Below are positions 7,843 through 57,733 of a stretch of 64,000 nt of DNA, one piece after another (the stretch's first letter is position 1; every line of letters begins with the position of its first letter). The position numbers and the translations under genes are program-made. The DNA comes from Nocardia sp. NBC_01730. GTDB taxonomy: Bacteria; Actinomycetota; Actinomycetes; Mycobacteriales; Mycobacteriaceae. The stretch spans positions 3,472,001-3,536,000 of the forward strand of contig NZ_CP109162.1 in assembly GCF_035920445.1 (NCBI RefSeq). Reading direction: 5' to 3'. The notes under the pieces are model-generated. The model saw nothing but the letters and a program-made list of their open reading frames with translations, was not told the DNA's origin and did not search any database.

Positions 7843-8019
7843 GTCGTGCCTCCCAGAAGTCTGTGTTTCCTCTTCGAGCATGACACCTGGACGAATACGA
7901 ATCAGCAGGCGAGACGGGATATCCGGGTGAAGATCAGGGTTCACCCTGACACGGCGGGCGCGCGACAGCCGTTCAGAACCTCGTAGAGTCACCAGACCAC
8001 TCGAACCGGCAGGAGTCAC

Positions 8020-8367
8020 ATGAACCTGACCACAGTCCTCACCCTCGCCGTCGGACTGCTCTTTCTCCTCACCGGCGCGGTGAAGCTCGTCGGCCTGCGA
8101 CAATCGCTCGAGATCCGCGATCATCTGCGCATCTCCCCTGCTCTGTGGCGCCTGACAGGCGCGCTGGAGATGGCAGGAGCCCTTGGCGCGGGCATCGGTA
8201 TCTACTTCCGACCGTTGGGGACGGCCGCGATCGTCGGCCTGGCTGCCCTGATGGTAGGAGCGATCGTGGCCCGGCTCCGTGTTCGCGACACCATCTCGGC
8301 GGTGACCATGGACGTGGTCGTCTTCGCCTTCGTCGCGGCGACGTTGGCCCTCACCGCTATTGCCTGA
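8020..8367 (+). CDS. DoxX-like membrane protein
   Basis: This 115-residue protein has four hydrophobic segments and the DoxX-family pattern: an N-terminal helix ending LTGAVKLVG, a polar RDHLRISPALWRLTGALEM stretch and glycine-rich helices. DoxX-like proteins are small quinone-pocket-type membrane proteins, some linked to redox stress. AGGAG four bases before the ATG at 8020 supports the start. It ends 36 bases before the convergent histidine kinase gene. Confidence 0.8.
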   Translation: MNLTTVLTLAVGLLFLLTGAVKLVGLRQSLEIRDHLRISPALWRLTGALEMAGALGAGIGIYFRPLGTAAIVGLAALMVGAIVARLRVRDTISAVTMDVVVFAFVAATLALTAIA

Positions 8368-8403
8368 GTCTTCTCGTGGGGAGTCGAACCGCTGGTGGAG
8401 TGC

Positions 8404-10377
8404 TCATAGGCTGTCGAGCGGGATCGTGACGTCCAGTGACGTCCCGCTTCCGACGGGGCTTGTCAACAGCATGCGGCCGCCGAGGGCCTCGACCCGGTCT
8501 TTGAGCCCGATCAGACCTGACCCTTTGCCGAGGTCAGCGCCCCCGATTCCGTCATCGCGGATCGACAGATAGAGGTTGTCGTCCTTGGACTGTGCGCACA
8601 CGGTCGCCTGGCTCGCGCGGGCATGTTTGGCGGTGTTGGTCAGCGTCTCGGCCACGATGTAATAGGCGCCGACTTCGACCGAGTCAGGCAAGCGACGGTC
8701 GATAGCGAGGTCAAGGGTGACGGGGACGGTGCAGCGGCGGGCCACTGTCTTCAGCGCGGGACCGAGCCCACCCTTGGACAGGATCGCGGGATGAATCCCG
8801 CGTGAGGTCTCCTGCAGATCCGCTGAGACTCCCGTCAAACCCGAAACGACGCCCTCCAGATGGCTTTTGAGGTCATCCAGGTGGGGCGGCACCGACGCCT
8901 CTGCCAGCCGCGCCTGCAACCCGAGCGAGACCAGCCGCTGCTGGACGCCGTCGTGCAGGTCGCGTTCCAGATGGCGGCGGGCGTCGTCTGCCGCCGCGAC
9001 GACGCGGGCGCGTGAGGCGATGAGTTCGGCGCGCGTTGCGGCGTTGGCGATCGCGGTCGCGACGAGATCGGCGAAGTCGGCGATGCGCGCCTCGCTGTCC
9101 GGCGGCATCGGCTCAGGGCGCCGTGAGCCGACGATAGCCGCACCCCATACGCGGCCGTCGACAACAATCGGGACTCCGACGATCGAGCCAATGCCCTCGG
9201 CACGGATGCGTTCGGCTTCCGGCCCGGTGGTGTTTTCGTGGTTGTCGATCCTGGCGGCGCGGCCGGTGCGTAACACGATCGCGCCGACGTCGTCGCCCGC
9301 CAACGAAATGTGCTCGCCGGTGACGGGTAGCTGCGTTATTTCCGGCTCGTACTGTACAGCGACCACATACCCTGTGCCGTCGGCCTCATAGCGGAGCAAA
9401 CCCGCGTTCGCCACATCCAGGCCGCGCGCCAATTCGGCGGTCACCGCAGCGAAGACCTCCGAGGGACTCGCTCCACGCGCGACCAGGGTCGCCACCCGCC
9501 GCAACGCGGCCTGCAGTTCAGCGAGCACACCGAGCCGGTCGCGGCTTGCCTCGACCATGCGCTGCGCCTGATGCAATTCGTCCTGCTCGCGTCTGCGATC
9601 GGTGACATCGCGGCCCACCGCGTAAGACCGGCCCTGATGAAGCACGACGCTCCAGTCGATCCACCGGTGCGAGCCGTCGCCGCAGATGACCCGGTTCTCC
9701 AAACGCACCGCCGCATTGCTGTCGGGAAGTTTCTGTAGCGCCGCAAGCACGCGATCCCGATCCTCGGGAACGACCAAATCGAGGTACGGCCGCGCCTGCA
9801 ATTCCTTGCTCGAATACCCGAGTATGCGCTCGAAGGCGGGATTAACCCGGATCACGTAGTCCGGGCCGGTGATGGCCAATAGGTCCGATGAGAGGTTGAA
9901 GAATCGTTCTCCCTCTCGCGCCAGGCCGGCAAGGGTACTGGCCCCCAACGCGACGACCAGGAAAACGGCGATGTACAGCAAGATCCGGGGATCGAACGGC
10001 TGGACCGGAGTTTCCGGCCAGTTACGGAGGTAGGCGAAGGCGATAGCACTGGCCACCGATATCGTCGCCGCCAGCCCGAACCTCCACATCGTGGAGACCA
10101 CCAAGACGCCGAGCAGGTAGAGCACGCCGAAGCCGGTCTCGCCGGTAATTTCGTTGAGCAAAAATACGACAAGGGTCTCGGCCACGATGAACGACACCCC
10201 CACCGCGATTCCCAGCACAACGGACGGGGTGGCAGGGCGAATCAAAAGCCACAGCAAACGGGCCAACATCGTTTGTGGACTCAGCCCTCGATCGGAGGTC
10301 CGGCCCGCGAAAACGCCGCCCGGCAGCCATGCCGAGCCAGGTTGCCGTGACCGCTTCTGTATCACCTGGAAAGTCAC
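8404..10377 (-). CDS. Membrane sensor histidine kinase: DUF4118-PAS-GAF-HisKA_3-HATPase
   Basis: This 657-residue kinase has these domains in order: a DUF4118 (KdpD-like) transmembrane region at about residues 45-155, a PAS domain (about 158-265, ending in a DVTDRRRE linker), a coiled linker, a GAF domain (about 305-450), a HisKA_3 dimerisation domain with phospho-acceptor H in ERDLHDGVQQRL (near residue 471), and an HATPase_c domain with DDGIGG and GSGLIGLKDRV. HisKA_3 kinases normally pair with NarL/LuxR response regulators, and one lies at 11521. A second kinase at 13 kb is highly similar from DUF4118 to the C-terminus but lacks PAS, which indicates a duplicated pair. The start is a GTG; the N-terminal 40 residues are not conserved in the paralogue. 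Confidence 0.92.
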   Translation of the reverse strand: MTFQVIQKRSRQPGSAWLPGGVFAGRTSDRGLSPQTMLARLLWLLIRPATPSVVLGIAVGVSFIVAETLVVFLLNEITGETGFGVLYLLGVLVVSTMWRFGLAATISVASAIAFAYLRNWPETPVQPFDPRILLYIAVFLVVALGASTLAGLAREGERFFNLSSDLLAITGPDYVIRVNPAFERILGYSSKELQARPYLDLVVPEDRDRVLAALQKLPDSNAAVRLENRVICGDGSHRWIDWSVVLHQGRSYAVGRDVTDRRREQDELHQAQRMVEASRDRLGVLAELQAALRRVATLVARGASPSEVFAAVTAELARGLDVANAGLLRYEADGTGYVVAVQYEPEITQLPVTGEHISLAGDDVGAIVLRTGRAARIDNHENTTGPEAERIRAEGIGSIVGVPIVVDGRVWGAAIVGSRRPEPMPPDSEARIADFADLVATAIANAATRAELIASRARVVAAADDARRHLERDLHDGVQQRLVSLGLQARLAEASVPPHLDDLKSHLEGVVSGLTGVSADLQETSRGIHPAILSKGGLGPALKTVARRCTVPVTLDLAIDRRLPDSVEVGAYYIVAETLTNTAKHARASQATVCAQSKDDNLYLSIRDDGIGGADLGKGSGLIGLKDRVEALGGRMLLTSPVGSGTSLDVTIPLDSL

Positions 10378-10520
10378 ATCGATTTTCGGCGGGCGTCAAC
10401 GAGATGAGCAAGCTAAGCATAACCACCCGGGACGGGCATAGTTCCTTGCATCGTCGGTGACCGCGCTCGACCCGCTGATGGATCCGCCGCCCAACACCAG
10501 CGCCGCGAACCGCCCGCGTG

Positions 10521-10889
10521 CTAGGCACGGCCTAGTGCGTGAACACCACCGATATGTGCCTCCGCCAGGAAATCGGTGAGCGTGACAGACAACCGCGCGC
10601 TGACTTCGATCAGCGCGGCCAGCAGCGCTTGCACCGGTTCCGGCCCGGTCGCTTGGAGCGCTACCGGCGTCGGCCGCAACCCCTCGATCTGTAGCCGGCA
10701 CAGATACTCCCGATCGGCGTCCGTCGACGGAAACCGCTGAGGCTCACCCACGATCACAAGTACCGACCGACCGTCCAGCCGAATCTCCCTGGTGGCCAGC
10801 ACTTTTCCGATCTCGCCAGTCGTCGCGAATGCTGATGGCAGATCCGGGACAATGGCATCGGTCGACGGTGCGGGCTCTGGGTCGGTCAT
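10521..10889 (-). CDS. Conserved hypothetical protein between the two-component genes
   Basis: This 122-residue soluble protein begins with an acidic, proline-rich segment. It continues with a beta-strand pattern (TREIRLDGRSVLVIVGEP, then REYLCRLQIEGL) and ends in an alpha helix (PVQALLAALIEVSARL). The pattern resembles small DUF6968-type proteins of actinobacteria, but I am not certain of the family. AGAGG seven bases upstream supports the ATG at 10889. It could be co-transcribed with the downstream kinase gene, 143 bases away. No function is proposed. Confidence 0.6.
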   Translation of the reverse strand: MTDPEPAPSTDAIVPDLPSAFATTGEIGKVLATREIRLDGRSVLVIVGEPQRFPSTDADREYLCRLQIEGLRPTPVALQATGPEPVQALLAALIEVSARLSVTLTDFLAEAHIGGVHALGRA

Positions 10890-11022
10890 TATCGTGCCTC
10901 TCGGTTGATGGATCGAACGGTTATCGGACCGCTGTCTGCGGCGACGTCGAGGTTCAGCGCGACGAGCACGGTTCCTGCCGGAGCGCCCCGAGGAGGTGGG
11001 CCGTGATCGGTGGAGTGCTGGA

Positions 11023-11154
11023 TCATTCGAGCCAGGGATTTATTTCGATGACTTCGACGAACAACAGTGGCGGCGCGCTGTCGCGGACCAACTCGGTGGC
11101 TTCGGCTACCAGACGGCTCTCTGGAACGGCGACGCCTGCGATGTGTTCGGTCAT
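11023..11154 (-). pseudogene. N-terminal stub of an HD-domain (cyanamide-hydratase-like) protein
   Basis: A 43-codon reading frame begins MTEHIAGVAVPESRLVAEAT and continues to PPLLF. This matches my memory of the N-terminus of HD-domain metal-dependent hydrolases, which usually continue with an HHSRRV motif. Here the frame departs from the family after PPLLF and stops within a dozen codons, so the HD catalytic part is absent. Immediately upstream on the same strand are two overlapping frames (down to an in-frame TGA directly before the ATG) that look coding but are shifted against each other. The whole 10.9-11.4 kb stretch appears to be decayed sequence. Confidence 0.4.
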
Positions 11155-11520
11155 CAGAATTCTCCAGTGAACTGGGCGCGGATACCGGTTTCGATTCGGT
11201 CGCCGAGTTCCTTGCCGAGATTGCGCCAGTGCTCAAAGGCGCGTTGCAGGACCGGTCTCGGTGACTGCGTTGCAGAGGTGGCCGAATTTCTTGGGATCGA
11301 ACCGTGTCGCGACTCCTCGCATTGCGCTATGGACTTCAGAATCGCGCTGTCGGCCGCGGAAGTCGTCAGTGCTGGCGGCCGTTGCCCCCGCCCGCCAGCC
11401 CCCGACCGCGGCTACCTGCTAGCTGCAAGTCGACCCGGACCGCGCCGCCATGCATGGATCGGCCCGGACGCCCAGGTGCAGCGGATATGCTCGAATCGGA
11501 TCAGCCAGGAGGTGGACTGG

Positions 11521-12231
11521 ATGGAGCCGACCACGGCCGGATCGGACGGTGCCCGAGCAGCCGGTCCGGGCGACTCCGCGGCCGGCTTGCGGGTGATTCT
11601 GGTCGAGGACGATGTCCTGCTGCGCGAGGGTTTGGCGAGCCTGCTCGAGCGCTCGGGATTCGAGGTCGCCGCCCAGGCCGGCGACGCGGTGCAACTGCTG
11701 AAGCTGGTCCGGGACCGGGCACCGCAGCTCGTAGTGGTCGATATTCGGATGCCTCCGACCCACACCACCGAGGGACTCGACGCCGCGCGCGCGATCCGCG
11801 AGGCATTTCCCGAGACGGGCATCCTGGTCCTGTCCGCGCATGCCGATGTCGAGCATGCGATGGAACTGCTGGCCAGCGGTCGCGGGATCGGCTACCTGCT
11901 CAAGAGCCGGATCACCGACGTGGAGGATTTCGTCGACACCCTGCACCGCATCGCCAAAGGCGCGTCGGTCGTGGACCCAGCGCTGGTCACCGAGTTGGTC
12001 TCCGCGCGCCGGCGCAACGATCCACTCGCTGCGCTCAGCGCGCGGGAGTGCGAGGTATTGGCGTTGATGGCCGAAGGCCGGTCCAACGCCGGGATCGGTC
12101 GTCGGCTGTGGGTCACCGAAGGCACTGTCGAGAAACATGTCCGCAGCATTCTGACCAAGCTGAATCTGCCCGAAACCGACGACGACCACCGCCGCGTCCT
12201 CGCGGTCGTCAGGTTCCTCGAGTCACGCTGA
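11521..12231 (+). CDS. NarL/LuxR-family response regulator
   Basis: This 236-residue DNA-binding response regulator has a receiver domain (about residues 25-145) with acidic pocket VEDD, phospho-acceptor D in VVVDIRMPP and conserved K in YLLKSRI. A LuxR-type HTH follows (about 170-230) with LSARECEVLALMAEGRSNAGI and EKHVRSILTKL. The ATG at 11521 is preceded by AGGAGGT at 11507-11513 with a 7-base spacer, which is a strong site. It is the natural partner for one or both HisKA_3 kinases in this island. Its 3' end overlaps the convergent single-domain receiver gene by 23 bases. Confidence 0.93.
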   Translation: MEPTTAGSDGARAAGPGDSAAGLRVILVEDDVLLREGLASLLERSGFEVAAQAGDAVQLLKLVRDRAPQLVVVDIRMPPTHTTEGLDAARAIREAFPETGILVLSAHADVEHAMELLASGRGIGYLLKSRITDVEDFVDTLHRIAKGASVVDPALVTELVSARRRNDPLAALSARECEVLALMAEGRSNAGIGRRLWVTEGTVEKHVRSILTKLNLPETDDDHRRVLAVVRFLESR

Positions 12232-12598
12232 GCCGACCCGCGTTGTCGCCTCGGAGCAGATCGTCGATGGCCGCGGACGACAGCGCGGATTTGGACAAGA
12301 AACCCACCGCCGGGCTCTCCGCGATCAGCTCGGCGAAGTCCTGCTCGGAGTGGGTGGAAATCAGGATGACCGGCACGGTGAGGCGCTCGGCGACTGCGAA
12401 GCCGCTCTCGGCACCGAGATTGACATCGACCAGGGCGACATCGGGCCGCAGCTGCGCTACCCGCCGCAGCGCCTCGGCACCGGTCGCCGCCACCCCCACA
12501 ACAGTCACCCCCTGCTGCTCGAGCAGACCACGAGCGGCAGCGAAGAAATTCGGGCTGTCATCGATGATGAGGCAGCGTAACGGCGTAACCCGTGTCAT
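12209..12598 (-). CDS. Single-domain response regulator (receiver only)
   Basis: This protein of about 129 residues consists of one receiver domain and no output domain. It has acidic pair IIDD near the start, phospho-acceptor D in VALVDVNL, switch S/T in ISTHS and conserved K in FLSKSAL. Such proteins act as phosphate sinks, relay intermediates or protein-protein regulators. The ATG at 12598 is chosen because the receiver strand starts just after it; an in-frame ATG at 12634 would add 12 residues. It overlaps the convergent LuxR regulator at 12209-12231, so the two genes cannot be fully transcribed at once without antisense overlap. Confidence 0.85.
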   Translation of the reverse strand: MTRVTPLRCLIIDDSPNFFAAARGLLEQQGVTVVGVAATGAEALRRVAQLRPDVALVDVNLGAESGFAVAERLTVPVILISTHSEQDFAELIAESPAVGFLSKSALSSAAIDDLLRGDNAGRLSVTRGT

Positions 12599-12759
12599 CA
12601 CGTCAGCTTGCCCGGACACACCGCGGGTCCGCATTGCTGCTAACGGGAAACCACTGCGGCGTTGCAGCTGGCGAGTAACCCGGAATTACCGCTGGCCGGA
12701 AGAAGCGATGCCCGCCAGCGGTGGCGACAGGCACTCCGCGCCGCGCGAGAGTGATCGAC

Positions 12760-13077
12760 ATGCGGATGACAACCTTGCCGGCCAGCGGACTCCGTGTCTC
12801 CCGAATTGCCTTCGGCACATGGCAACTCGGCGGCGGCCGCGGCCACTCGACGACGATGCGGCGACCACCGCGATCCGCCACACCCGCTAGCTCGTTGTCA
12901 ACTTCTTCGACACCGCGCAGGGATACGGTTTCGGCGCGGCCGAACGGCTCCTCGGCAGGGCACTCCGCCACAAACTCGCCACCGCCCGTGACGAACTCGT
13001 GATCGCTACCAAGGGCGGCCTTCGCCACACCGACTCCGGTCTGGTCCGCGACGCAGGCCCGGACTGGCTACGGCGAC
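12760..13077 (+). pseudogene. Aldo/keto reductase remnant with frameshift and nonsense codon
   Basis: The ATG at 12760 starts a typical aldo/keto reductase N-terminus (MRMTTLPASGLRVSRIAFG then TWQLGG). After about 12846 the homology continues in another frame (DDDAATTAIRHTR), which fits the loss of a single base. An in-frame TAG at 12888-12890 then interrupts it. The same frame goes on with VVNFFDTAQGYGFGAAERLL (the family's D..Y active-site segment) and DELVIATKGGLRHTDSG (the catalytic lysine strand). Homology stops at about 13077 (PDWLRR), where histidine-kinase sequence begins without a change of frame. The C-terminal two thirds of the barrel are missing, so this is a dead gene joined to the kinase gene. 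Confidence 0.75.
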
Positions 13078-14591
13078 TGGTGTCGTTATCCCTGCGCCCG
13101 ACGACCCCGCCCTTCTGGCTCGGATTCACAGTCGCCGCAACATTCATCGCCGTGCAATCAGTGCTCGTCGTTTGGCTCAAACAGTTCTCCCCGGGGGATG
13201 CGTTCGGTGTGGTCTACCTGCTCGGCGTCCTGGTGGTCTCCACGATATGGGGACTCGGGATGGCGGTGGCGACGTCACTGGCCAGCGCGATCGCCTTCGA
13301 CTACTTCCGCAACTGGCCGACGCCCTTCGTCCCCGGTGCCGACGACCTGGCGGCCATCGCCGTGTTCCTGGTCGTCGCATTGCTGGCCAATACGCTCGCG
13401 GATTTGGCCCGAACCCATGCCATCGAGGCGGATCGACGACGAGCCGAAGCCGATCAGGTCGCCGACCAGCAAGCCGCGTTGCGCCGCGTCGCCACACTCG
13501 TCGCGCGCGGAGCAACCTCGTCGGAAGTGTTCTCGGCAGTCACTGAGGAATCGACCCGCTGCCTCGGTGTCTCGAGCGCGACGCTGTTCCGCTACGACCC
13601 CGACGGCTCAGGCACGATAGTCGCACGCCGCGATGAACCCGGCCTGCAAAAACCGCCGGTCGGCGAGCGCCTCACCCTCGACGGCGAGAACATCTCGGCC
13701 ATGGTGCTGCGCACAGGTAGCCCCGCCCGCCTCGACAGCCACGACCATGCTTCGGGCTCCGCCGCCGCACGCATCCGCGAGTTCGGTCTGCGCGCGGGCG
13801 TCGGCGCGTCGATCGTCGTCGACGGCCGCCTCTGGGGAGTCATCGTCGCCGGGACGTCGCGACGCGAGCCACTGCCTGCCGACATCAAGGCGCGCCTGGC
13901 CGAGTTCGCGGACCTGGTCGCGACCGCGATCGCGAAGGCAGAAGCGCACGCGCAACTCACCGCCTCCCGCGCCCGGATCGTCGCCGCCACCGACGAGGCA
14001 CGGCGCCGCCTGGAACGCGACCTGCACGACGGGGCGCAACAGCGCCTCGTCTCGCTGGGTCTCATGCTCCGCACGGCCGAGGCCATGGTGCCATCCGGAT
14101 CGACCGCGCTGCGCGCGCGGCTCTCGGACGTCGTGCAAGGTCTGGTCGACGTCTCGGAGGACCTACGCGAGATCTCCCGAGGAATTCATCCGGCGATCCT
14201 GTCGAAAGGTGGACTCGGCCCGGCGCTCAAGGCGCTGGCGCGGCGCTCGGCTGTCCCGGTCCGGCTCGACGCGGCGTTGCACGAGCGCTTGCCGGAGTCC
14301 GCCGAGATAGCCGCATATTACGTTGCGGCAGAAGCGTTGACGAACGCCACCAAGCACGCACAGGCATCCGGGGTCGAGATCGATGTGCGAACCGAAGGCC
14401 CATATCTTCAACTCTCGATCCGAGACGACGGAATCGGCGGCGCCGATCCCGCCGGCGGGTCCGGGCTCATCGGACTGACCGACCGCGTCGAAGCCCTCGG
14501 CGGCCGGCTGGACATCACCAGCCACCCAGGACACGGAACTACCCTGCTCGTGCGTATCCCGATCGCCACCACGTCAGCGACAATTTCCTGA
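12999..14591 (+). CDS. Membrane sensor histidine kinase: DUF4118-GAF-HisKA_3-HATPase, frame fused to aldo/keto reductase debris
   Basis: From about residue 27 this is a paralogue of the kinase at 8404-10377. It has a DUF4118 transmembrane region (FWLGFTVAATFIAVQ, then GVVYLLGVLVVSTIWGLG), a short coiled linker, a GAF domain (about 160-310), a HisKA_3 domain with H in ERDLHDGAQQRL (near residue 342) and an HATPase with DDGIGG. It lacks the PAS domain of its paralogue. The first 26 codons of the open frame (from the GTG at 12999) encode aldo/keto reductase sequence. The functional start may therefore be the GTG at 13080, exactly at the junction. Neither start has a clear ribosome binding site. 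Confidence 0.88.
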   Translation: MIATKGGLRHTDSGLVRDAGPDWLRRLVSLSLRPTTPPFWLGFTVAATFIAVQSVLVVWLKQFSPGDAFGVVYLLGVLVVSTIWGLGMAVATSLASAIAFDYFRNWPTPFVPGADDLAAIAVFLVVALLANTLADLARTHAIEADRRRAEADQVADQQAALRRVATLVARGATSSEVFSAVTEESTRCLGVSSATLFRYDPDGSGTIVARRDEPGLQKPPVGERLTLDGENISAMVLRTGSPARLDSHDHASGSAAARIREFGLRAGVGASIVVDGRLWGVIVAGTSRREPLPADIKARLAEFADLVATAIAKAEAHAQLTASRARIVAATDEARRRLERDLHDGAQQRLVSLGLMLRTAEAMVPSGSTALRARLSDVVQGLVDVSEDLREISRGIHPAILSKGGLGPALKALARRSAVPVRLDAALHERLPESAEIAAYYVAAEALTNATKHAQASGVEIDVRTEGPYLQLSIRDDGIGGADPAGGSGLIGLTDRVEALGGRLDITSHPGHGTTLLVRIPIATTSATIS

Positions 14592-15433
14592 CGCCCACAG
14601 CGCTGGGGGATCCGACACCGACCTCGGTATCGCGACGACGTCGTGGACACCCGATCAACCCGCCGACATTGCGAGTTCCGGCACGGCCGCCACATCACGC
14701 CCGCGAAAACGTCCGGACACGCGGCAGGCGGGACGAGGAACCTATCCGCCTGGCAGGAGCTTTGTGGGGACGCTCGGACGGGCCGGCCGTCGAGGTGGTC
14801 GAGGACTGCGTCGTCGGTCTTCCCACCGGCCTGTTGTTGCGTGGGCATCGGGCGCCGAACCCCGCGATGCGCCGGCGCCTGGAAACGGCCGTACGCGCCA
14901 TCCTCTCCCTGGACCCACCACCACAGCGAAAACGACAGAGCGACAACGTACGGCGCCGAGGCGCACGCCAGCGGGCTGATCGACCGCACCGCACCGGAAG
15001 GTGCCGTGCTCGACACCGCCATCGAACTCATCAGGCCGATCGCAGGGAAAGACCCGAGCACCCTCGGCGCCATCAAATCCACCATGTTCGCCAGCGCGGA
15101 CTCCCCCACGTGCGGGTGCGGACGGGTGGGTGCGGCGGGATCGGCGGCACCTCGGGAGTTGCGGCCGTGCCGCATCGCGAGCACTACGGCCGCCGCACCG
15201 CGGCAAGTGCTCGGTGGTGCCGGCGGCGGAGCACGACGATCGGCCTCGGCGACGGCGACAGTTGGCCACTTGCCGCTCATGCGACTACGGCTTGTCGGAT
15301 TGCCTTGGCGGAGTTGAGGAGTCAGCCGCTTCGGTGCGACCCCCGGGTTATCCTTCCCCAGGGAAGATACGGCACGCGCAGGGGGCGGCACCGGGCGACT
15401 TCACAGCCGGTGCCACCCCGTGCGGGCGGCGGA
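14592..15433. other. Gene-poor accessory stretch with decayed sequence
   Basis: No intact gene is supported between the second kinase and the PRC-barrel gene. Long open frames exist on both strands, but they have the arginine/proline-rich composition of high-GC shadows. Besides the crotonase remnant at about 14948-15100, the plus strand near 14755-14925 could hold a broken helix-turn-helix-like fragment (VGLPTGLLLRGHRAPNPAMR). I regard that as unproven. The stretch belongs to the same rearranged segment as the HD-domain stub and the aldo/keto reductase remnant. Confidence 0.5.
14948..15100 (+). pseudogene. C-terminal remnant of an enoyl-CoA hydratase/isomerase
   Basis: About 50 codons read as the C-terminal helices of a crotonase-family protein: GAEAHASGLIDRTAPEG, then DTAIELIRPIAGKDPSTLGA and IKSTMFA. 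The catalytic N-terminal domain is absent and no start codon with a ribosome binding site precedes the match. The surrounding frame drifts into unrelated sequence after FASA. The call is by pattern recognition of the family C-terminus. Confidence 0.5.
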
Positions 15434-16192
15434 TCACCGCCGACGACAGTCGGGATCATCGACCCCTTCGGTGTCGATGAGCTCCTCGCGCACGGCGCCG
15501 GAGACGATGCGGCTGTCCTCGACCTCGTCGACATCGAGGCAGACCCGCTCGACCCGCCGCGATTCGTTGTTCACCATCATCTGGTCGTGGTGCAGGGTGA
15601 CCTCGGCTCCTTGCTCGCCGATGTCGTAAGGACGGATGGTGTACGGGTCGGTGATCGGCTCGCGGTCGACCTGTACCTCTTCGCGACTGGTGGGCACCTC
15701 GACCGTCTGTTCCTCGGTCTCGATGTACCTGCGCACCCGCGCCCTGCCCGCGATCTCCTGCTCGGTACCGAGGTCGAGCCGCTCCTCCGGGCGCACCATC
15801 CCGTTGCCGGGACGTTGCCGACCCTGGGCCGGGCTCGCGGCCCGCCGCGGCTGCATCTCGAAGGTGTTCCACCCGGACCGATTCGGGTCGATGTCGTAGT
15901 GGTCGAACAGTTCCAGCTCGGCCTCAGGACTGATCATCCCGTTCTGGGCCAGATTCGGCGCGGTCTTCACAACGTCCTTCTTCACCTGCACCTGCAGCGC
16001 GCCCGCGTCCCACTGGTGCTGGGCACCGGCCAGCGGCACCAGCGCATCGTCTCTGAACAGTCCGGTGGATACCGCGACCCAGGTAGGTGATCCGGAATCG
16101 TTGTCGATATAGACCCGCTTGACCTTGCCGATCTTGTCGCCGCCCGGGTCGTACACAGCGCTGCCGATGAGCGCGTCCAGCATGTCAGTCAT
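15434..16192 (-). CDS. PRC-barrel and DUF2382 (YsnF/AvaK-type) stress protein
   Basis: This 252-residue protein has an N-terminal PRC-barrel domain (about 1-90), containing KIGKVKRVYIDNDSG and PTWVAVSTGLF. A proline/arginine-rich linker follows, then a C-terminal DUF2382 domain (about 135-245), marked by LDLGTEQEIAGRARVRRYIE and the repeated VEVPTSREEVQVDREPI pattern. Proteins of this build occur in several general-stress loci; the molecular role is not established. GGAGG four bases before the ATG at 16192 gives a strong start. No operon partner is obvious; a small gene follows the same strand upstream. Confidence 0.87.
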   Translation of the reverse strand: MTDMLDALIGSAVYDPGGDKIGKVKRVYIDNDSGSPTWVAVSTGLFRDDALVPLAGAQHQWDAGALQVQVKKDVVKTAPNLAQNGMISPEAELELFDHYDIDPNRSGWNTFEMQPRRAASPAQGRQRPGNGMVRPEERLDLGTEQEIAGRARVRRYIETEEQTVEVPTSREEVQVDREPITDPYTIRPYDIGEQGAEVTLHHDQMMVNNESRRVERVCLDVDEVEDSRIVSGAVREELIDTEGVDDPDCRRR

Positions 16193-50830: not shown

Positions 50831-51477
50831 CCTCGAAGCAGCTGGAAGGTCGATACCGGCACACCGACCCGCTCGATCGGTTCGCCAGAGCGGTCGATCA
50901 TGGCGAGCGCTTGCTCGAACGCGAGCAGCCCGGAAAGGAATATCGCGAGGACAGCCTGGTAATACAGCTGACTCCGCCGGCGATGCTGGAGCATCGACCT
51001 TCAGAGGGGTCGGAACACCGCCCCGGGTTCCTATGGAGATATAGGGATTTCCCTACTGCGTCCGACCGCCGACGGAGCCCGATCCTTGTTGTGGCGATAC
51101 AGCTGAATCTCTGCTGACAACCGCTCGACAAAGTTCGGCATTCCGGTCCATCCGGTACCGGGGTCCGCTGGTCGCCTGGAACGTCTGAGCAGCACCCCGC
51201 TGACCAGCGCTGAACATCTGCAGGAGCGCCGCATGCTCGATGAAGTGCCCCGTCGGTCTTACCAACCCGTAGCGAGCCACCCCAGGAGACAGCCGAGTCT
51301 CCCCGTCACGATCGCGCCCAGCGCGAGGTCGACCCGGCAGCAGCAGGACGAGTTCGCGGCCACGGCGGACGACGCGGTTCGCGACAACGACGTGCGCGGC
51401 GAGGACACCGCCGGGCCGGTGCCGTATGACAGTGCCCGCCGAGAAGCGGCAATCCACACCGCATGGCTGGGCTGCCG
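50831..51477. other. Debris and promoter region before the hemB-containing operon
   Basis: No intact gene is supported in these 650 bases. Several open frames on both strands have shadow composition. A minus-strand frame around 50810-50990 contains a hydrophobic stretch (YYQAVLAIFLSGLLAFEQAL) that might derive from a real protein, but I do not recognise it. The promoter of the operon starting at 51478 should lie in the last part. Confidence 0.4.
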
Positions 51478-51825
51478 ATGAGCACGGCGTTGCTATCTCC
51501 TACTGCCGCAGCACGGAGCACCCGGATGAGGTCGTTCGAGCCGGGCGCGAGCGCCGCCCCTGACCAGCCTGTGGTCTGGGGCGCCCCGGCAACGCTGGCG
51601 GCGCTGCGGAATTGGGTGGCGGCCGTGTCCGAGGCGGAGTTGCGACGCCTGGACGGCCGCGCGCCCGGGCTCGACGCCCGCGCCCGCGACGAGGTTTCTC
51701 GTGCCATCCAGCGGGTGGTGGATGGCCTCTTCGGTGATCTCGGATCCCGGTTGGCCCGCGACGCCGCCCTCATCGACGCGCTCCGCGTGCTCTTCGCACT
51801 CGACCCCTCGGGAGGCAACCCGTGA
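51478..51825 (+). CDS. Stand-alone glutamyl-tRNA reductase (HemA) C-terminal dimerisation domain
   Basis: Of 115 residues, about the last 75 match the helical dimerisation domain of HemA: TLAALRNWVAAVSEAELRRL, PGLDARARDEVSRAIQRVVD and the terminal ALRVLFALDP typical of the family end. The catalytic domain with its active-site cysteine and the NADPH-binding domain are absent, and no trace of them is found upstream. The gene is first in a tightly coupled operon: the next gene starts at the overlapping GTGA. It may be a truncated gene kept for translation coupling, or a small regulator that dimerises with a full-length HemA. Confidence 0.6.
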   Translation: MSTALLSPTAAARSTRMRSFEPGASAAPDQPVVWGAPATLAALRNWVAAVSEAELRRLDGRAPGLDARARDEVSRAIQRVVDGLFGDLGSRLARDAALIDALRVLFALDPSGGNP

Positions 51826-52541
51826 CCAGGGTGGGTGTCGTGGTACCGCCGGCCAACCCGGCCGTGGAACCGGAGTTCGCACGCCTTCTTGGCGCGCATG
51901 CGGACCTCCACGTCACCCGCTTCCCCGTACAGCCCTGCCTTTCGTTGTCCGAGCGCCTGAACGCCTACAACGGTGCGCTGCCCGGCATGATCCGCTCTTT
52001 CGGCGGACTTCCGCTCGACGCGCTGGTCATGGCCTGCAGCGGCGCACGCTATCTGCTGGGCCCGGTCGAGGACCGCCGCCGCTGTGCCGAGCTGAGCGCG
52101 GAGTTCGGGCTACCCGTCGCCTCCGCTACCGAGGCCACCAGGCAGGCTTTGGCACACCTCGACACCGAGACGATCACGCTGATCTCGCCGTACCAGCCGT
52201 GGCTGACCATCCACGCCGACCGATTCTGGACGGCGGCGGGCGTGCGGATCGCCCAGGTGGTGGCGGTGAAGGCCGGCCAGCGCTTCGCCCCCTACGAGGT
52301 GACCACGGATCAGCTCGTCGCGCAGATCGAGCAAGCCGGGGTGGCGCAGGACGGGGTGCTGTTGCTGACCGGCACCGGCATGCCGACACTGCACGCGATC
52401 GGCCGGCTCACGGCGGGTAACGCGCGAGTCATCCTGACCTCCAACCTGTGCGGCGCCTGGTGGGCCCTGACCAGCACGGGCCTGCCCGTCACCCTCGGCG
52501 GCGCCGAGCACGCGGCGCAGGTCGAGCAGGTCGCGACATGA
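51822..52541 (+). CDS. Maleate isomerase / arylmalonate decarboxylase-like protein (Asp/Glu racemase superfamily)
   Basis: This 239-residue protein starts RVGVVVPPANPAVEPEFARL. The two catalytic cysteine positions of the superfamily are kept: VMACSGARYLL (first half) and LTSNLCGAWWAL (second half). VTLISPYQPWLTIHADRFW is the dicarboxylate-binding region. Maleate isomerases and AMDases use this pair for cis-trans isomerisation or decarboxylation of dicarboxylates. GGGAGG six bases before the GTG at 51822, and overlap with the preceding stop, indicate strong coupled translation. The substrate in this operon is unknown. Confidence 0.82.
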   Translation: MTRVGVVVPPANPAVEPEFARLLGAHADLHVTRFPVQPCLSLSERLNAYNGALPGMIRSFGGLPLDALVMACSGARYLLGPVEDRRRCAELSAEFGLPVASATEATRQALAHLDTETITLISPYQPWLTIHADRFWTAAGVRIAQVVAVKAGQRFAPYEVTTDQLVAQIEQAGVAQDGVLLLTGTGMPTLHAIGRLTAGNARVILTSNLCGAWWALTSTGLPVTLGGAEHAAQVEQVAT

Positions 52542-52621
52542 GCGAGCGCAGCGAGCGAGCTATGGACACAGCCGAGTTCTCGGTCATGACGGAGCCGAGC
52601 GCCAGCGAGGCGGAGGCATGA
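52538..52621 (+). CDS. 27-codon bridging mini-ORF (actinobacterial GAGCGCAGCGAGCGA-type repeat)
   Basis: The ATG at 52538 overlaps the previous stop (ATGA), and its own TGA overlaps the ATG of the monooxygenase gene (ATGA). The peptide MSERSERAMDTAEFSVMTEP ends in an alanine/glutamate tail. The DNA (AGCGAGCGCAGCGAGCGAGC, later GAGCCGAGCGCCAGCGAGGC) resembles a repeat family that I have seen between genes in Nocardia and relatives. It may simply keep ribosomes moving between two genes after a repeat insertion. Whether the peptide is functional is unknown. Confidence 0.45.
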   Translation: MSERSERAMDTAEFSVMTEPSASEAEA

Positions 52622-53766
52622 CCGCCGACGTCATGGTGGCAGGGGCCGGGCCGGTCGGGTTGATCGCGGCACTGACCCTGGCCAAGGCCGGGGTGTCGGT
52701 GCTGGTGCTGGAGCGCGAGCCGGGGCTGGTCACGAGCTCGCGCGCCGCCACCATTCACCCGGCTACGCTCGACCTTCTCGACGAGCTGGAGGTAGCCGCG
52801 GAGCTGGTGGCGCACGGCATGGTCGTGGACCGCATGCAGTGGCGCGACCTGTCCGGAACCGTGCTGGCCGAGATGACGATGGCCGCACTGGACGGCCTGA
52901 CCGGGCATCCCTTCCGGCTGCACGCGGAGCAGGCGGTGCTGACCCGGCTATTGCTCGGCGCTCTCGAAGCACATCCGGAGGCGGTTGTCCGGTTCGGTGC
53001 TCCGATCGAAACCGTAACCGACACAGGCTCGGCCGTACGAGCCAGAACCGCGAGCAGCTGGGAACAGGCGCAGTATCTTGTCGCGGCAGACGGCGCACAC
53101 AGCACCGTCAGAACCTCGCTCGGTCTGTCATTACCGCAGTCCGTCTACCCGACGCACGTGCTACGGATCTTCACCCGTTCACCACTCGATGAACTGCTTC
53201 CAGGACTGGCGCCGGTGACCTACATCCGCGACCTCATCCAGTCGTGCAGCCTGTTGCGGTTGCCCGACCACTGGCGGATCATCCTCCGGCTGGCGCGCGA
53301 CGAGCCGATGCCACAGCGCGTAGCCGGACTGGAATTGAGTGACCTGAACGTCATCGACGCGCATCGCTACACCCTGGCCAGCGGGGTGCTGGACACCTTC
53401 TGCCACGGCCGGGTGCTGTTCGTCGGCGACGCCGCGCACATCACTTCCACCGCTGGCGGACTCAACATGAACGCCGGTATCCACGACGCGGTCGACCTCG
53501 GCAGGACACTCGCCGGTGTGCTCGCGGGGCCCACGTCACCGGCCTCCTTGGAAAGCTGGTCCCGGCGCCGTCGCGCGGTCCTGATCGACCATGTCGTCCC
53601 GACCAGCGAGGCAAGGGTCGCGGGCGTGCAGGACGGCGAGCCCGCCCGACTGCCCGCCGCGGTCGCCACGTTGAGGGCCATCGCCGCCGACGGCGAAGCC
53701 ACCAGGGCCTACCTGGCCAGAGCCTCCATGCTCGACACCGTCCCCCTTGCGATAAGGCACACCTGA
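52618..53766 (+). CDS. FAD-dependent monooxygenase (aromatic hydroxylase type)
   Basis: This 382-residue group A flavin monooxygenase has VAGAGPVGLIAALTLAKAGV (GxGxxG FAD loop), the DG motif in YLVAADGAHSTVRTSLG, and the GD motif LFVGDAAHITSTAGGLNMNA. The length and motif order match enzymes that hydroxylate aromatic rings or pyrroles with NAD(P)H and oxygen. It is translated by ATGA overlap with the mini-ORF and ends one base before the next gene. In this operon a pyrrole such as porphobilinogen would be a plausible substrate; this is inference. Confidence 0.9.
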   Translation: MTADVMVAGAGPVGLIAALTLAKAGVSVLVLEREPGLVTSSRAATIHPATLDLLDELEVAAELVAHGMVVDRMQWRDLSGTVLAEMTMAALDGLTGHPFRLHAEQAVLTRLLLGALEAHPEAVVRFGAPIETVTDTGSAVRARTASSWEQAQYLVAADGAHSTVRTSLGLSLPQSVYPTHVLRIFTRSPLDELLPGLAPVTYIRDLIQSCSLLRLPDHWRIILRLARDEPMPQRVAGLELSDLNVIDAHRYTLASGVLDTFCHGRVLFVGDAAHITSTAGGLNMNAGIHDAVDLGRTLAGVLAGPTSPASLESWSRRRRAVLIDHVVPTSEARVAGVQDGEPARLPAAVATLRAIAADGEATRAYLARASMLDTVPLAIRHT

Positions 53767-53767
53767 C

Positions 53768-54559
53768 ATGCGAATTCGGTTCCAGAAACACGCCGTCGAG
53801 GGGCGCTCGCCGCTGCTCGACAAGCTCTACGCCGAGCATCTGACCAAGGTGTCGGGGCCCGACACCACGGTCGAGATCCACACCCTTCCGCCGCTGACCT
53901 ATCCGACTGAGCTGCCTGAGGAGCTGGTCGGCTTCGGGTCGATCGGGCTGCTGTTCGGCGACTACTTCGCGCGCACGGCCGTGTCCGCCGAACGCGACGG
54001 CTGCGCCGCGTGGATCAGCGGTGCCGGCCAGGATCCCGGGCTCGCCGCCGCGCGCGTCCGCGCCACCATCCCCGTGATCGGGTACGGAGACGCCACCTGG
54101 CAGGCTGCTCGGCAGGAGCGTCACCGGCTCGGCGTGCTCGGCTTCATTCCCCATCTGGCCGAGCCGATCACCGACAACATCGCCTCCTCCGGCGCTACCT
54201 TGGCGTCCTACCAGGTGATCGACGACGGTGCAGTCGTCGTCTCCCGCGCGCTGGCCGAGGATTTCGAGCCGTTCGTGCGAGCGTACCGAGCTGCCGCCGA
54301 GCGGGCGGCGAAGGCGGGTGCGCAGTGGTTGGTGCCCGCCGAAGGGATACCCAACGAGATCCTCGTCCACCTGGAGATCCGGGAGCTGTGCGGGCTGCCG
54401 GTCATCGACCCCGGCGGGCTGGCGGTCAAGACCGCCGAGTACCTGGTTGGCCTGCGCCATCTCGGCATTACCGCCAAGACCGAAACCGGGTACTGGTACC
54501 GGCAGCCGTCCCGGGCCGTCGTCGAGCACGTCGAACGCATACTGGAGGCCAGGTCATGA
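53768..54559 (+). CDS. Asp/Glu/hydantoin racemase-fold protein lacking both catalytic cysteines
   Basis: This 263-residue protein has the superfamily fold: SPLLDKLYAEHLTKVSGPDT at the start, DPGLAAARVRATIPVIGYGD after the first active-site loop, and LPVIDPGGLAVKTAEYLVGL near the end. At the first cysteine position (usually ACFGDPG) it has SGAGQDPG, and at the second (usually LGCAGM) it has VPAEGIP. Racemisation by the two-cysteine mechanism is therefore unlikely. It may bind a dicarboxylate or catalyse a different step. It starts one base after the monooxygenase stop and overlaps hemB by ATGA. Confidence 0.78.
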   Translation: MRIRFQKHAVEGRSPLLDKLYAEHLTKVSGPDTTVEIHTLPPLTYPTELPEELVGFGSIGLLFGDYFARTAVSAERDGCAAWISGAGQDPGLAAARVRATIPVIGYGDATWQAARQERHRLGVLGFIPHLAEPITDNIASSGATLASYQVIDDGAVVVSRALAEDFEPFVRAYRAAAERAAKAGAQWLVPAEGIPNEILVHLEIRELCGLPVIDPGGLAVKTAEYLVGLRHLGITAKTETGYWYRQPSRAVVEHVERILEARS

Positions 54560-55533
54560 ACTTCCCCGCAGTCCGACCGCGGCGGCTGCGCCGTACCGCC
54601 GCGTTACGCGCGCTGGTGGCCGAGCACCGGCTACACCCGTCAGAGCTGGTCCAGCCCCTGTTCGTGCGCGAGGGCATCGAGGAGCCTCGGCCCATCCCCG
54701 CGATGCCCGGCCAGCTCCAGCACACGCGCGAGAGCCTGCGCAAGGCGGCCGCGACCGCCGCACAGGCGGGGGTGGGCGGAATCATGATCTTCGGTATCCC
54801 CGAGGCCAAGCATCCCGACGGGCGCGGCGCCTGGGACGAGCACGGCATCGCCCAGCTCGCGATCGCCGACGTCGCGGCCGAGGTGGGCGACGCGACTGTG
54901 GTGATCGGCGATATCAATCTCGATGAATACACCGATCACGGACATGTCGGCCTCCTCGGAGCCGACGGCGACGTAGACAACGACGCCACGCTGCGCGCCT
55001 ACACTCGGGTCGCGCTGGCGCAGGCCGGAGCCGGAGCCCACCTGGTAGCGCCGAGCGGCATGATGGATGGCCAAGTCGCCGCCATCCGCGCCGGACTCGA
55101 CGCCGCCGGGTATGAGCGGGTACCCATTCTCGCCTACGCGGCGAAATACGACTCCGCGTTCTATGGGCCCTTCCGCACGGCCGTCGAATCCTCGTTGGTC
55201 GGCACCAGATCCACCCATCAACAGGACCCGGCCAACCTCCGCGAGGCGCTGCGCGAGGTGCTGCTCGACGTCGAGGAGGGCGCCGATCTGGTCATGGTCA
55301 AACCCGCCGGACTCTACCTCGACGTGGTGCGCAGGGTGGCCGACACGGTGGATGTGCCAGTCGCCGCCTACCAGGTCTCGGGTGAGTACGCCGCAATCGA
55401 GGCCGCAGCGCAGCAAGGGATGCTGCAGCGTGAGCGGGCCATCGAGGAGAGTCTGACCGCGATCCGCCGGGCCGGGGCGCGGATCGTCATCACCTACTGG
55501 GCCACCGAGGTCGCACAGCGGCTACCTGGATAG
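54556..55533 (+). CDS. hemB: Porphobilinogen synthase (5-aminolevulinate dehydratase) paralogue
   Basis: This 325-residue TIM barrel would condense two 5-aminolevulinate molecules to porphobilinogen. The start PRRLRRTAALRALVAEHRLH, the first Schiff-base lysine in AYAAKYDSAFYGPFR and the second in LVMVKPAGLYLD are complete. The zinc cysteines of the human-type enzyme are replaced: the loop reads DINLDEYTDHGHVG, without C, which suggests a magnesium-type site. It is the last gene of the operon, coupled by ATGA. The housekeeping hemB of actinobacteria normally sits with hemA-hemC-hemD, so this is probably a second copy with a special role. Confidence 0.93.
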   Translation: MNFPAVRPRRLRRTAALRALVAEHRLHPSELVQPLFVREGIEEPRPIPAMPGQLQHTRESLRKAAATAAQAGVGGIMIFGIPEAKHPDGRGAWDEHGIAQLAIADVAAEVGDATVVIGDINLDEYTDHGHVGLLGADGDVDNDATLRAYTRVALAQAGAGAHLVAPSGMMDGQVAAIRAGLDAAGYERVPILAYAAKYDSAFYGPFRTAVESSLVGTRSTHQQDPANLREALREVLLDVEEGADLVMVKPAGLYLDVVRRVADTVDVPVAAYQVSGEYAAIEAAAQQGMLQRERAIEESLTAIRRAGARIVITYWATEVAQRLPG

Positions 55534-57377: not shown

Positions 57378-57659
57378 CGCACAGCAGGATTCACCTGATC
57401 GGCCGACGCCGATCCAGCCGATGACAGCGACCAGGGCGCCACCAACACTGCGCCGAAACCCGATCTAGATCCCCGGCGCGCGCATCGTTTACCCGCTCGG
57501 AACCAGTTCACGGCGGAGAAGCCACGAGTCCACGATGAGATCGTCGGTACGGTCGGAGCCCAGCCCGGCCAGTTCGCCAAGACACTCGAGTCGATTTCGG
57601 ACGGTGACACCGCCGCCACGCTGTATGTCCATTCAGTGGCTGTGACCAGGTCTTCGTGG

Positions 57660-57733
57660 AGCGGATGACGGGATTCGAACCCGCGACCCTCACCTTGGCA
57701 AGGTGATGCGCTAGCCAGCTGCGCCACATCCGC
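57660..57733 (-). tRNA. tRNA-Gly (anticodon GCC)
   Basis: On the minus strand the acceptor GCGGATG (from 57733) pairs with CATCCGC. The D-arm GCGC..GCGC is intact, and the anticodon stem TCACC/GGTGA closes the loop TTGCCAA with anticodon GCC. The T-arm CGGGTTCGAATCCCG is canonical, and CCA is encoded at 57659-57657 after the discriminator T. The tRNA faces the MFS gene on the same strand and is a typical potential integration site, but no integrase is near. Confidence 0.95.

Follow-up and report, generated by a model that had tools for sequence, protein, structure and literature searches.

The window analysed here, a 64,000-nucleotide stretch of the Nocardia sp. NBC_01730 genome (NZ_CP109162.1, forward-strand positions 3,472,001 to 3,536,000), holds an operon at 51478-55533 in which a lone glutamyl-tRNA reductase (GluTR, HemA) dimerisation domain, a protein of the arylmalonate decarboxylase (AMDase)/maleate isomerase family, a group A flavin monooxygenase (FMO), a racemase-fold protein and a second porphobilinogen synthase (HemB) are encoded one after the other, together with a mini-ORF (Table 1). 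Neighbouring reading frames overlap by 4 bases or are separated by a single one: hemA-C and amd overlap by 4 bases, as do race and hemB, fmo and race lie 1 base apart, and the 76 bases between amd and fmo are occupied by the mini-ORF. Open reading frame positions and Pfam matches bear out the coordinates, order and coupled junctions given in an earlier reading of the bare sequence (the original prediction), which had proposed that the operon diverts 5-aminolevulinate (ALA) or porphobilinogen from heme into a specialised metabolite. Taken as a whole, the evidence is best explained, and with good probability in our view, by a specialised-metabolite operon that has spread horizontally and draws on the tetrapyrrole trunk.

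Table 1. The operon and the small gene on its 5' side (window coordinates).
Feature	Position	Strand	Remarks
small ORF 5' of hemA-C	51302..51481	+	C-terminus ARREAAIHTAWLGCR matches co-located small Nonomuraea gene
hemA-C, lone GluTR (HemA) dimerisation domain	51478..51825	+	PF00745 GlutR_dimer 24.6 bits, cut-off 22.9
amd, arylmalonate decarboxylase/maleate isomerase family protein	51822..52541	+	PF17645
mini-ORF, 27 aa	52538..52621	+	starts within a GAGCGAGCGCAGCGAGCGAGC repeat-like stretch
fmo, group A FAD monooxygenase	52618..53766	+	PF01494
race, Asp/Glu-hydantoin-allantoin racemase fold	53768..54559	+	PF01177
hemB2, second porphobilinogen synthase (HemB)	54556..55533	+	PF00490 421 bits, NF006762 above cut-off

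With the racemase-fold protein as distribution marker, homologues turned up in 13 of the 54 genomes of Nonomuraea, in 12 of the 295 of Streptomyces, in 2/396 genomes sampled across the phylum and, by profile, in 5/394 sampled across the class (the window's own genome included in both samples); a close AMDase-like protein (at least 77%) occurs in 3/148 Nocardia genomes, again counting its own. Neighbourhoods were read for five Nocardia loci (the window, L003, L004, L005 and L014), 13 Nonomuraea genomes and 12 Streptomyces genomes, and the core is whole or nearly whole in 29 loci (5 Nocardia, 13 Nonomuraea, 11 Streptomyces). The genes amd, fmo and race stand together in 4/5, 13/13 and 11/12 of them, respectively, and a near-full hemB follows in 5/5, 12/13 and 10/12, to which the broken-frame Streptomyces locus L058 may be added; a further complete copy of the cluster lies in G1216. 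The co-occurrence that the original prediction had suggested looking for is thus there, with the same families in the same order, and since this order is kept in three genera the arrangement is far beyond chance.

The HemB of the window is complete, as had been claimed: PF00490 spans residues 6-321 of its 325 amino acids, NF006762 scores 433.8 bits against a cut-off of 297, and both active-site lysine motifs, AAKYDS and VMVKP (VMIKP in L014), are kept. Near-full-length HemB is present in 27/29 core loci; of the other two copies, one belongs to the locus with broken frames and one is truly deleted. Both Schiff-base lysine motifs occur in all 27, as well as in what can be read of the broken L058 copy. 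The window HemB lacks the cysteine ligands of the zinc type: the two cysteines of the housekeeping copy are N and V in it. Across the cluster an Asn replaces one zinc cysteine in 27/27, and the other is Val or Thr in the copies read (V in L185). A tree of these 27 cluster sequences (L058, with its broken frames, and the deleted L186 were omitted) and 15 housekeeping ones, none of them from Nonomuraea, parts the cluster set from the housekeeping set of Nocardia and Streptomyces on one branch, with support of 100/97. In comparisons of the window genes with five Nocardia and Nonomuraea relatives, hemB has a dN/dS of 0.07-0.11, the lowest of the five operon genes; by this measure, the cluster hemB is under purifying selection, and its product is a specialised, selected and probably active enzyme.

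Could the operon nonetheless be a chance arrangement around the housekeeping gene, as the original prediction allowed if this were the only hemB? The 8.68 Mb genome, a single contig, has two, the window copy and one at 5.286 Mb, with hemL, hemC and hemA matches 2.8 to 6.1 kb away from the latter. Among the genomes searched a second hemB is present in 14/15 (3/3 Nocardia and 11/12 Streptomyces; G765 is without). The second hemB, the recurrence of the core, whose other genes travel with the cluster hemB, and the split of the HemB tree together exclude an arrangement by chance.

It is the Streptomyces version that explains the Nocardia operon. In 11/12 genomes its order is gltX (minus strand), MFS, an LLM-type F420 oxidoreductase, LysR, an EamA exporter, a LuxR-like gene and, in 7/11, a tautomerase, and then amd, fmo, race, hemB, a full hemA, an acetate-CoA-ligase-like gene, hemL, Ohr and a CaiB-type CoA transferase. 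The families were identified in L053 and carried to the other loci by similarity, and the public annotation of NZ_CP109002.1 is consistent with them; on this 90 kb linear plasmid of Streptomyces sp. NBC_00704 the full cluster lies near one end (64000-90356, L196). An MFS gene stands beside the core in 10/11 loci, and in L058, with its broken frames, MFS and LysR are not recognisable. A second full hemA, hemL and gltX accompany the cluster in 11/12 Streptomyces genomes with a race gene, and gltX, hemA, hemB and hemL are each present again elsewhere in the same genomes (the hemL copies of G754 are broken and fall under the family cut-off). As for their catalytic motifs, the cluster HemA has the three GluTR domains in L053 and the TCNR motif in 10/11 loci, GltX has the HIGH-type and KLSKR motifs in 11/11, and HemL the pyridoxal-phosphate lysine motif in 10/11. 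Judged from these genes, the route from glutamate through glutamyl-tRNA, glutamate semialdehyde and ALA to porphobilinogen is entirely duplicated in the Streptomyces cluster, and ends there. ARAGORN found no cluster-borne tRNA-Glu in 18 loci, calling one tRNA-Lys and one unassigned tRNA. Nocardia genomes have a second, shorter gltX-type match (224-236 bits), away from the operon in the window genome, which presumably represents another synthetase-like family.

The housekeeping C5 pathway (GltX-HemA-HemL-HemB) leads to porphobilinogen through the same four enzyme families, with catalytic motifs that the cluster copies keep. What sets the cluster apart is that its extra copies are found together with the FMO, AMDase-like and racemase-like proteins and exporters, that hemC is missing, and that its HemB has no zinc cysteines. 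Perhaps these paralogs of HemA, HemB and HemL merely provide extra heme, or an unusual tetrapyrrole? We hold this to be very improbable, as 23/24 genomes searched are without a hemC match near the cluster, and the annotated genes beside it include no later heme genes. The sole exception is the Nonomuraea genome G873, which has a porphobilinogen-deaminase-like gene (PF01379, PF03900) and a hemB remnant on the minus strand of L186, at 14654-15301 and 8553-8957; its product has, in our reading, a Gly at the expected dipyrromethane cofactor cysteine position, and the presence of such a gene near the cluster also points to porphobilinogen. The window (3.47-3.54 Mb) does not pair hemC with hemB as a heme operon would, and the genome's hemC matches lie outside it, at 1.54 and 5.29 Mb, in agreement with the original prediction that no hemC is present at the operon; hemD was not searched. 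The second hemC-like match of this genome, a long way from the operon at 1543543-1544186, is divided between two reading frames.

The Streptomyces core, with its extra gltX, hemA and hemL and its exporters but without hemC, therefore strongly supports, at the level of gene content, the diversion of ALA and porphobilinogen into a specialised metabolite instead of heme, and the product is probably a secreted compound. In this respect the original prediction has held, on the operon's own hemB, the genes that travel with it and the Streptomyces gltX, hemA and hemL; its cysteine-based maleate isomerase reading, treated below, has not. The same genes could also be seen as a means of self-resistance, in which the operon makes an antimetabolite resembling ALA or porphobilinogen, and the extra HemB (with HemA, HemL and GltX in Streptomyces) is an insensitive target copy, as can be imagined for producers of alaremycin, an inhibitor of HemB. 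One report (PMC13402209) describes this compound as a known analogue of ALA by which porphyrin synthesis is suppressed. The altered metal site of the cluster HemB (N for C in 27/27, V or T for the other cysteine in matched copies) and the exporters that adjoin the core would fit such a role. On the other hand, four successive enzymes of one route, a tRNA synthetase and GluTR among them, fit supply better, HemB shares its operon with tailoring enzymes, and the annotated cluster genes include no ALA-synthase-like gene, so that we regard self-resistance as improbable, albeit the foremost of the alternatives to diversion.

How ALA would be supplied in Nocardia and Nonomuraea is suggested by hemA-C. 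The HemA C-terminal domain of the original prediction is indeed there, its PF00745 match above cut-off, and it stands alone: the NCBIfam GluTR model matches only at 348-426 of its 447 positions, and without the catalytic N-terminal and NADPH domains the product is not a GluTR. This free domain heads the core in 16/18 Nocardia and Nonomuraea loci (all except L004 and L186), with a very divergent copy in L185, and in a tree from which L058 was omitted all 16 fragments group in a single clade (100/100). Its dN/dS in the window comparisons is 0.36-0.60, which indicates weaker selection than on the enzymes, though it stays below 1. Mean identity is 47% to housekeeping HemA and 37% to the Streptomyces cluster HemA, over 75 columns only; an origin by truncation of the latter is unsupported, the fragments being nearer housekeeping HemA. 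As far as these alignments tell, HemA is brought in in two different ways by the two lineages. Probably ALA supply limits the pathway, and the free domain binds the housekeeping GluTR and changes that supply. In support of such a role, the plant regulator FLU docks on the GluTR dimerisation domain.

What, then, of the enzymes that would act on the pyrrole? The FMO is a group A flavin monooxygenase, as first proposed, scoring 175.5 bits against PF01494, with the FAD-binding motifs GAGPVG, ADGAHS and GDAAH in the window copy, and with GxGPxG in 27/29 and GDAAH in 29/29 loci. The closest solved structures by sequence are PnpA (E 4.5e-32) and HspB (E 3.9e-31). PnpA acts on a nitrophenol; HspB, by its name, acts on a hydroxypyridine, unlike the proposed pyrrole substrate of the FMO. 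Both hydroxylate ipso, with loss of the substituent, and both are degradative enzymes.

The amd product was originally described as maleate-isomerase-like with both cysteines, and of this the family stands and the catalytic pair does not. It scores 37.8 bits against the arylmalonate decarboxylase family profile PF17645 (cut-off 25.9) and 33.5 bits against NF052327, far below the cut-off of 225, and resembles the maleate isomerases 2xed, 2xec and 4fq5. Cys72 aligns with the maleate isomerase nucleophile Cys76, whereas the position of the second catalytic cysteine, Cys194, is Gly in 28/28 amd copies; another cysteine, C210, lies away from the catalytic sites and is missing in 7/28. Arylmalonate decarboxylase has its catalytic cysteine at the second site, where we take it to be Cys188, and there too the amd product has Gly. 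Its one catalytic cysteine occupies the first site instead, which is also the arrangement of the engineered G74C/C188S arylmalonate decarboxylase. The family profile, the first cysteine, the Asn of VPPANP and the Tyr of SPYQPW are common to the amd product and these enzymes, with the Gly at the second site and the 37.8 bits to the Pfam model marking its distance from them. The race product belongs to the racemase fold (PF01177) and carries the conserved motifs QD.GL and PAEGIPN. It had been described as free of cysteines: it has two, C79 and C208, and the description is right for both catalytic sites, around which none is found in 29/29 loci. The first site is Ala, and the second is Ala, Glu or Gly depending on the alignment. 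In the allantoin and hydantoin racemases, the fungal OpaE (9qbx) included, the catalytic pair is Cys90/Cys199 in OpaE and Cys79/Cys184 in KpAllR, and race is missing both.

It could be argued from such families that the operon is catabolic, with FMO, AMDase/maleate-isomerase-like and hydantoin-racemase-like proteins breaking down an N-heterocycle and HemB as a passenger. The degradative nature of PnpA and HspB agrees with this, as do distant race relatives that cluster with FAD oxidoreductases and isochorismatase-like proteins (neighbour families assigned by eye). A passenger, however, would hardly be near full length in 27/29 loci and under strong purifying selection in the Nocardia and Nonomuraea comparisons, nor would it come with three further ALA genes in Streptomyces; we consider a catabolic operon unlikely, more so than self-resistance.

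Returning to diversion, the cluster HemB would condense two ALA to porphobilinogen or a close pyrrole, with ALA coming from the housekeeping route in Nocardia and Nonomuraea, where the lone domain would act on the housekeeping GluTR, and from a dedicated set of glutamyl-tRNA synthetase, GluTR and glutamate semialdehyde aminomutase in Streptomyces. The FMO could hydroxylate the electron-rich pyrrole, either at its free alpha carbon or, with a substituent being lost, at the ipso position, to give a pyrrolinone; the AMDase-like enzyme, with a single nucleophilic cysteine and a carboxylate pocket, might decarboxylate or isomerise an acid side chain; the racemase-fold protein might tautomerise or epimerise the five-membered lactam; and the product would be exported. 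Biosynthetic gene clusters assembled from primary-metabolism paralogs are a known kind. C5N-unit and alaremycin type pathways likewise bring an ALA or ALA-like unit into a specialised metabolite. The present cluster uses the C5 route and HemB. C5N-unit and alaremycin pathways, unlike it, start with an enzyme of the ALA-synthase type and are not known to involve HemB. Porphobilinogen is, to our knowledge, generally known only as the tetrapyrrole monomer, and we know of no described branch point at porphobilinogen without hemC; no description of the cluster or its product was found in the open-licence PMC papers searched, PMC13402209 and PMC12661438 among them. We lean slightly towards a new bacterial class of metabolites made from porphobilinogen and not tetrapyrroles, another way out of the ALA and porphobilinogen trunk, for which Streptomyces uses its own glutamyl-tRNA synthetase, and Nocardia and Nonomuraea a free GluTR-domain regulator. 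If so, a conserved mobile cluster without hemC, which makes porphobilinogen and passes it on to enzymes of oxidation and rearrangement, would give access to a biosynthetic branch as yet unexplored, and chemists would gain a predictable starting block, traceable by ALA labelling. Testable questions on how cellular ALA supply is controlled also arise, both from a glutamyl-tRNA synthetase that is dedicated to a metabolite cluster and from a GluTR dimerisation domain that stands alone.

Several observations weigh against this reading. The hemA-C domain shows no closer kinship with the cluster HemA of Streptomyces than with the housekeeping one, so that two arrangements are being lumped together; among the genes of the Nocardia operon none was recognised as an exporter or a regulator; and our pattern for the second FAD motif is matched in just 16/29 FMOs. 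In Nocardia exalbida (L004, 9189-11763) the locus is decayed: there is no hemA-C or amd, fmo lacks its 5' part, and race and hemB are kept. In G873 amd, fmo and race are kept and HemB is reduced to its two ends, the catalytic middle lost and PF00490 matching only 253-316. Moreover, the race family is not tied to porphobilinogen, since the 20 kb read in G765 holds a homologue (46%) and no further core gene, and distant homologues (31-33%) in L193 and L194 (G1080 and G1127) lie in other oxidoreductase clusters.

As to how the operon came to be so scattered, the five Nocardia loci branch with Nonomuraea typhae and N. endophytica inside Nonomuraea diversity (race 96/94, HemB 99/96), and few flanking genes are shared among the Nocardia loci in a crude gene comparison; this nesting and the scarcity of shared flanks make horizontal spread likely. 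A tRNA-Gly at 57657-57733, about 2.1 kb 3' of the operon, is a possible insertion site. Scans for promoters and terminators detected none.

The 5' end of the operon is probably the small gene ahead of hemA-C, which runs as far as 51481, so that its last bases take in the hemA-C ATG at 51478; its start position is uncertain, with an alternative in-frame ATG at 51233. It shares 36% identity with the Nonomuraea copy in L012, and RREAA and W.GC are invariant across 10 rows. We dropped its reading as a tautomerase, four copies having no Pfam match (E<=10); the Pfam tautomerase of L053 is a distinct 139-aa protein, with a similar gene in 7/11 Streptomyces loci. The mini-ORF, whose protein begins MSERSERAMDT, occurs only in the window genome among those compared. 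Because relatives have a direct amd/fmo overlap at that place (4 bases of overlap or 2 bases apart in 26/27 other amd-bearing loci, all except L058 with its broken frames), we read it as a genome-specific insertion between amd and fmo that kept translational coupling; a functional peptide was discarded, there being no counterpart in the relatives compared.

Further observations were made along the way. Nonomuraea loci have an MFS gene upstream of the core, and between it and the small gene ending in WSGC lies a conserved gene for a 62-103 aa peptide (L188, 12636-12845, minus strand, and matching places); these peptides share an ending like RTVHRLHHIRQVSDQAISVIDQ, and no Pfam family exceeds its cut-off in the copies tested. 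In L193 and L194 the distant race homologues stand in a similar gene order, with neighbours assigned by eye as FAD oxidoreductases, SDR, isochorismatase-like and PEP-mutase-like proteins, in what is probably a degradative cluster. An amd homologue in G063 (46%) has no other core genes within the 19 kb read. Lastly, a second hemA/hemB locus of Nonomuraea typhae (L170, G829) turned out to be a different cluster: at about 8000-15900 it holds a second hemA, hemB and hemC with a ferrochelatase-like gene (by eye), adjoined by an ABC transporter with a peptidase-like start (also by eye) and a 51-aa GG-type-leader peptide, perhaps for a peptide product that needs heme.

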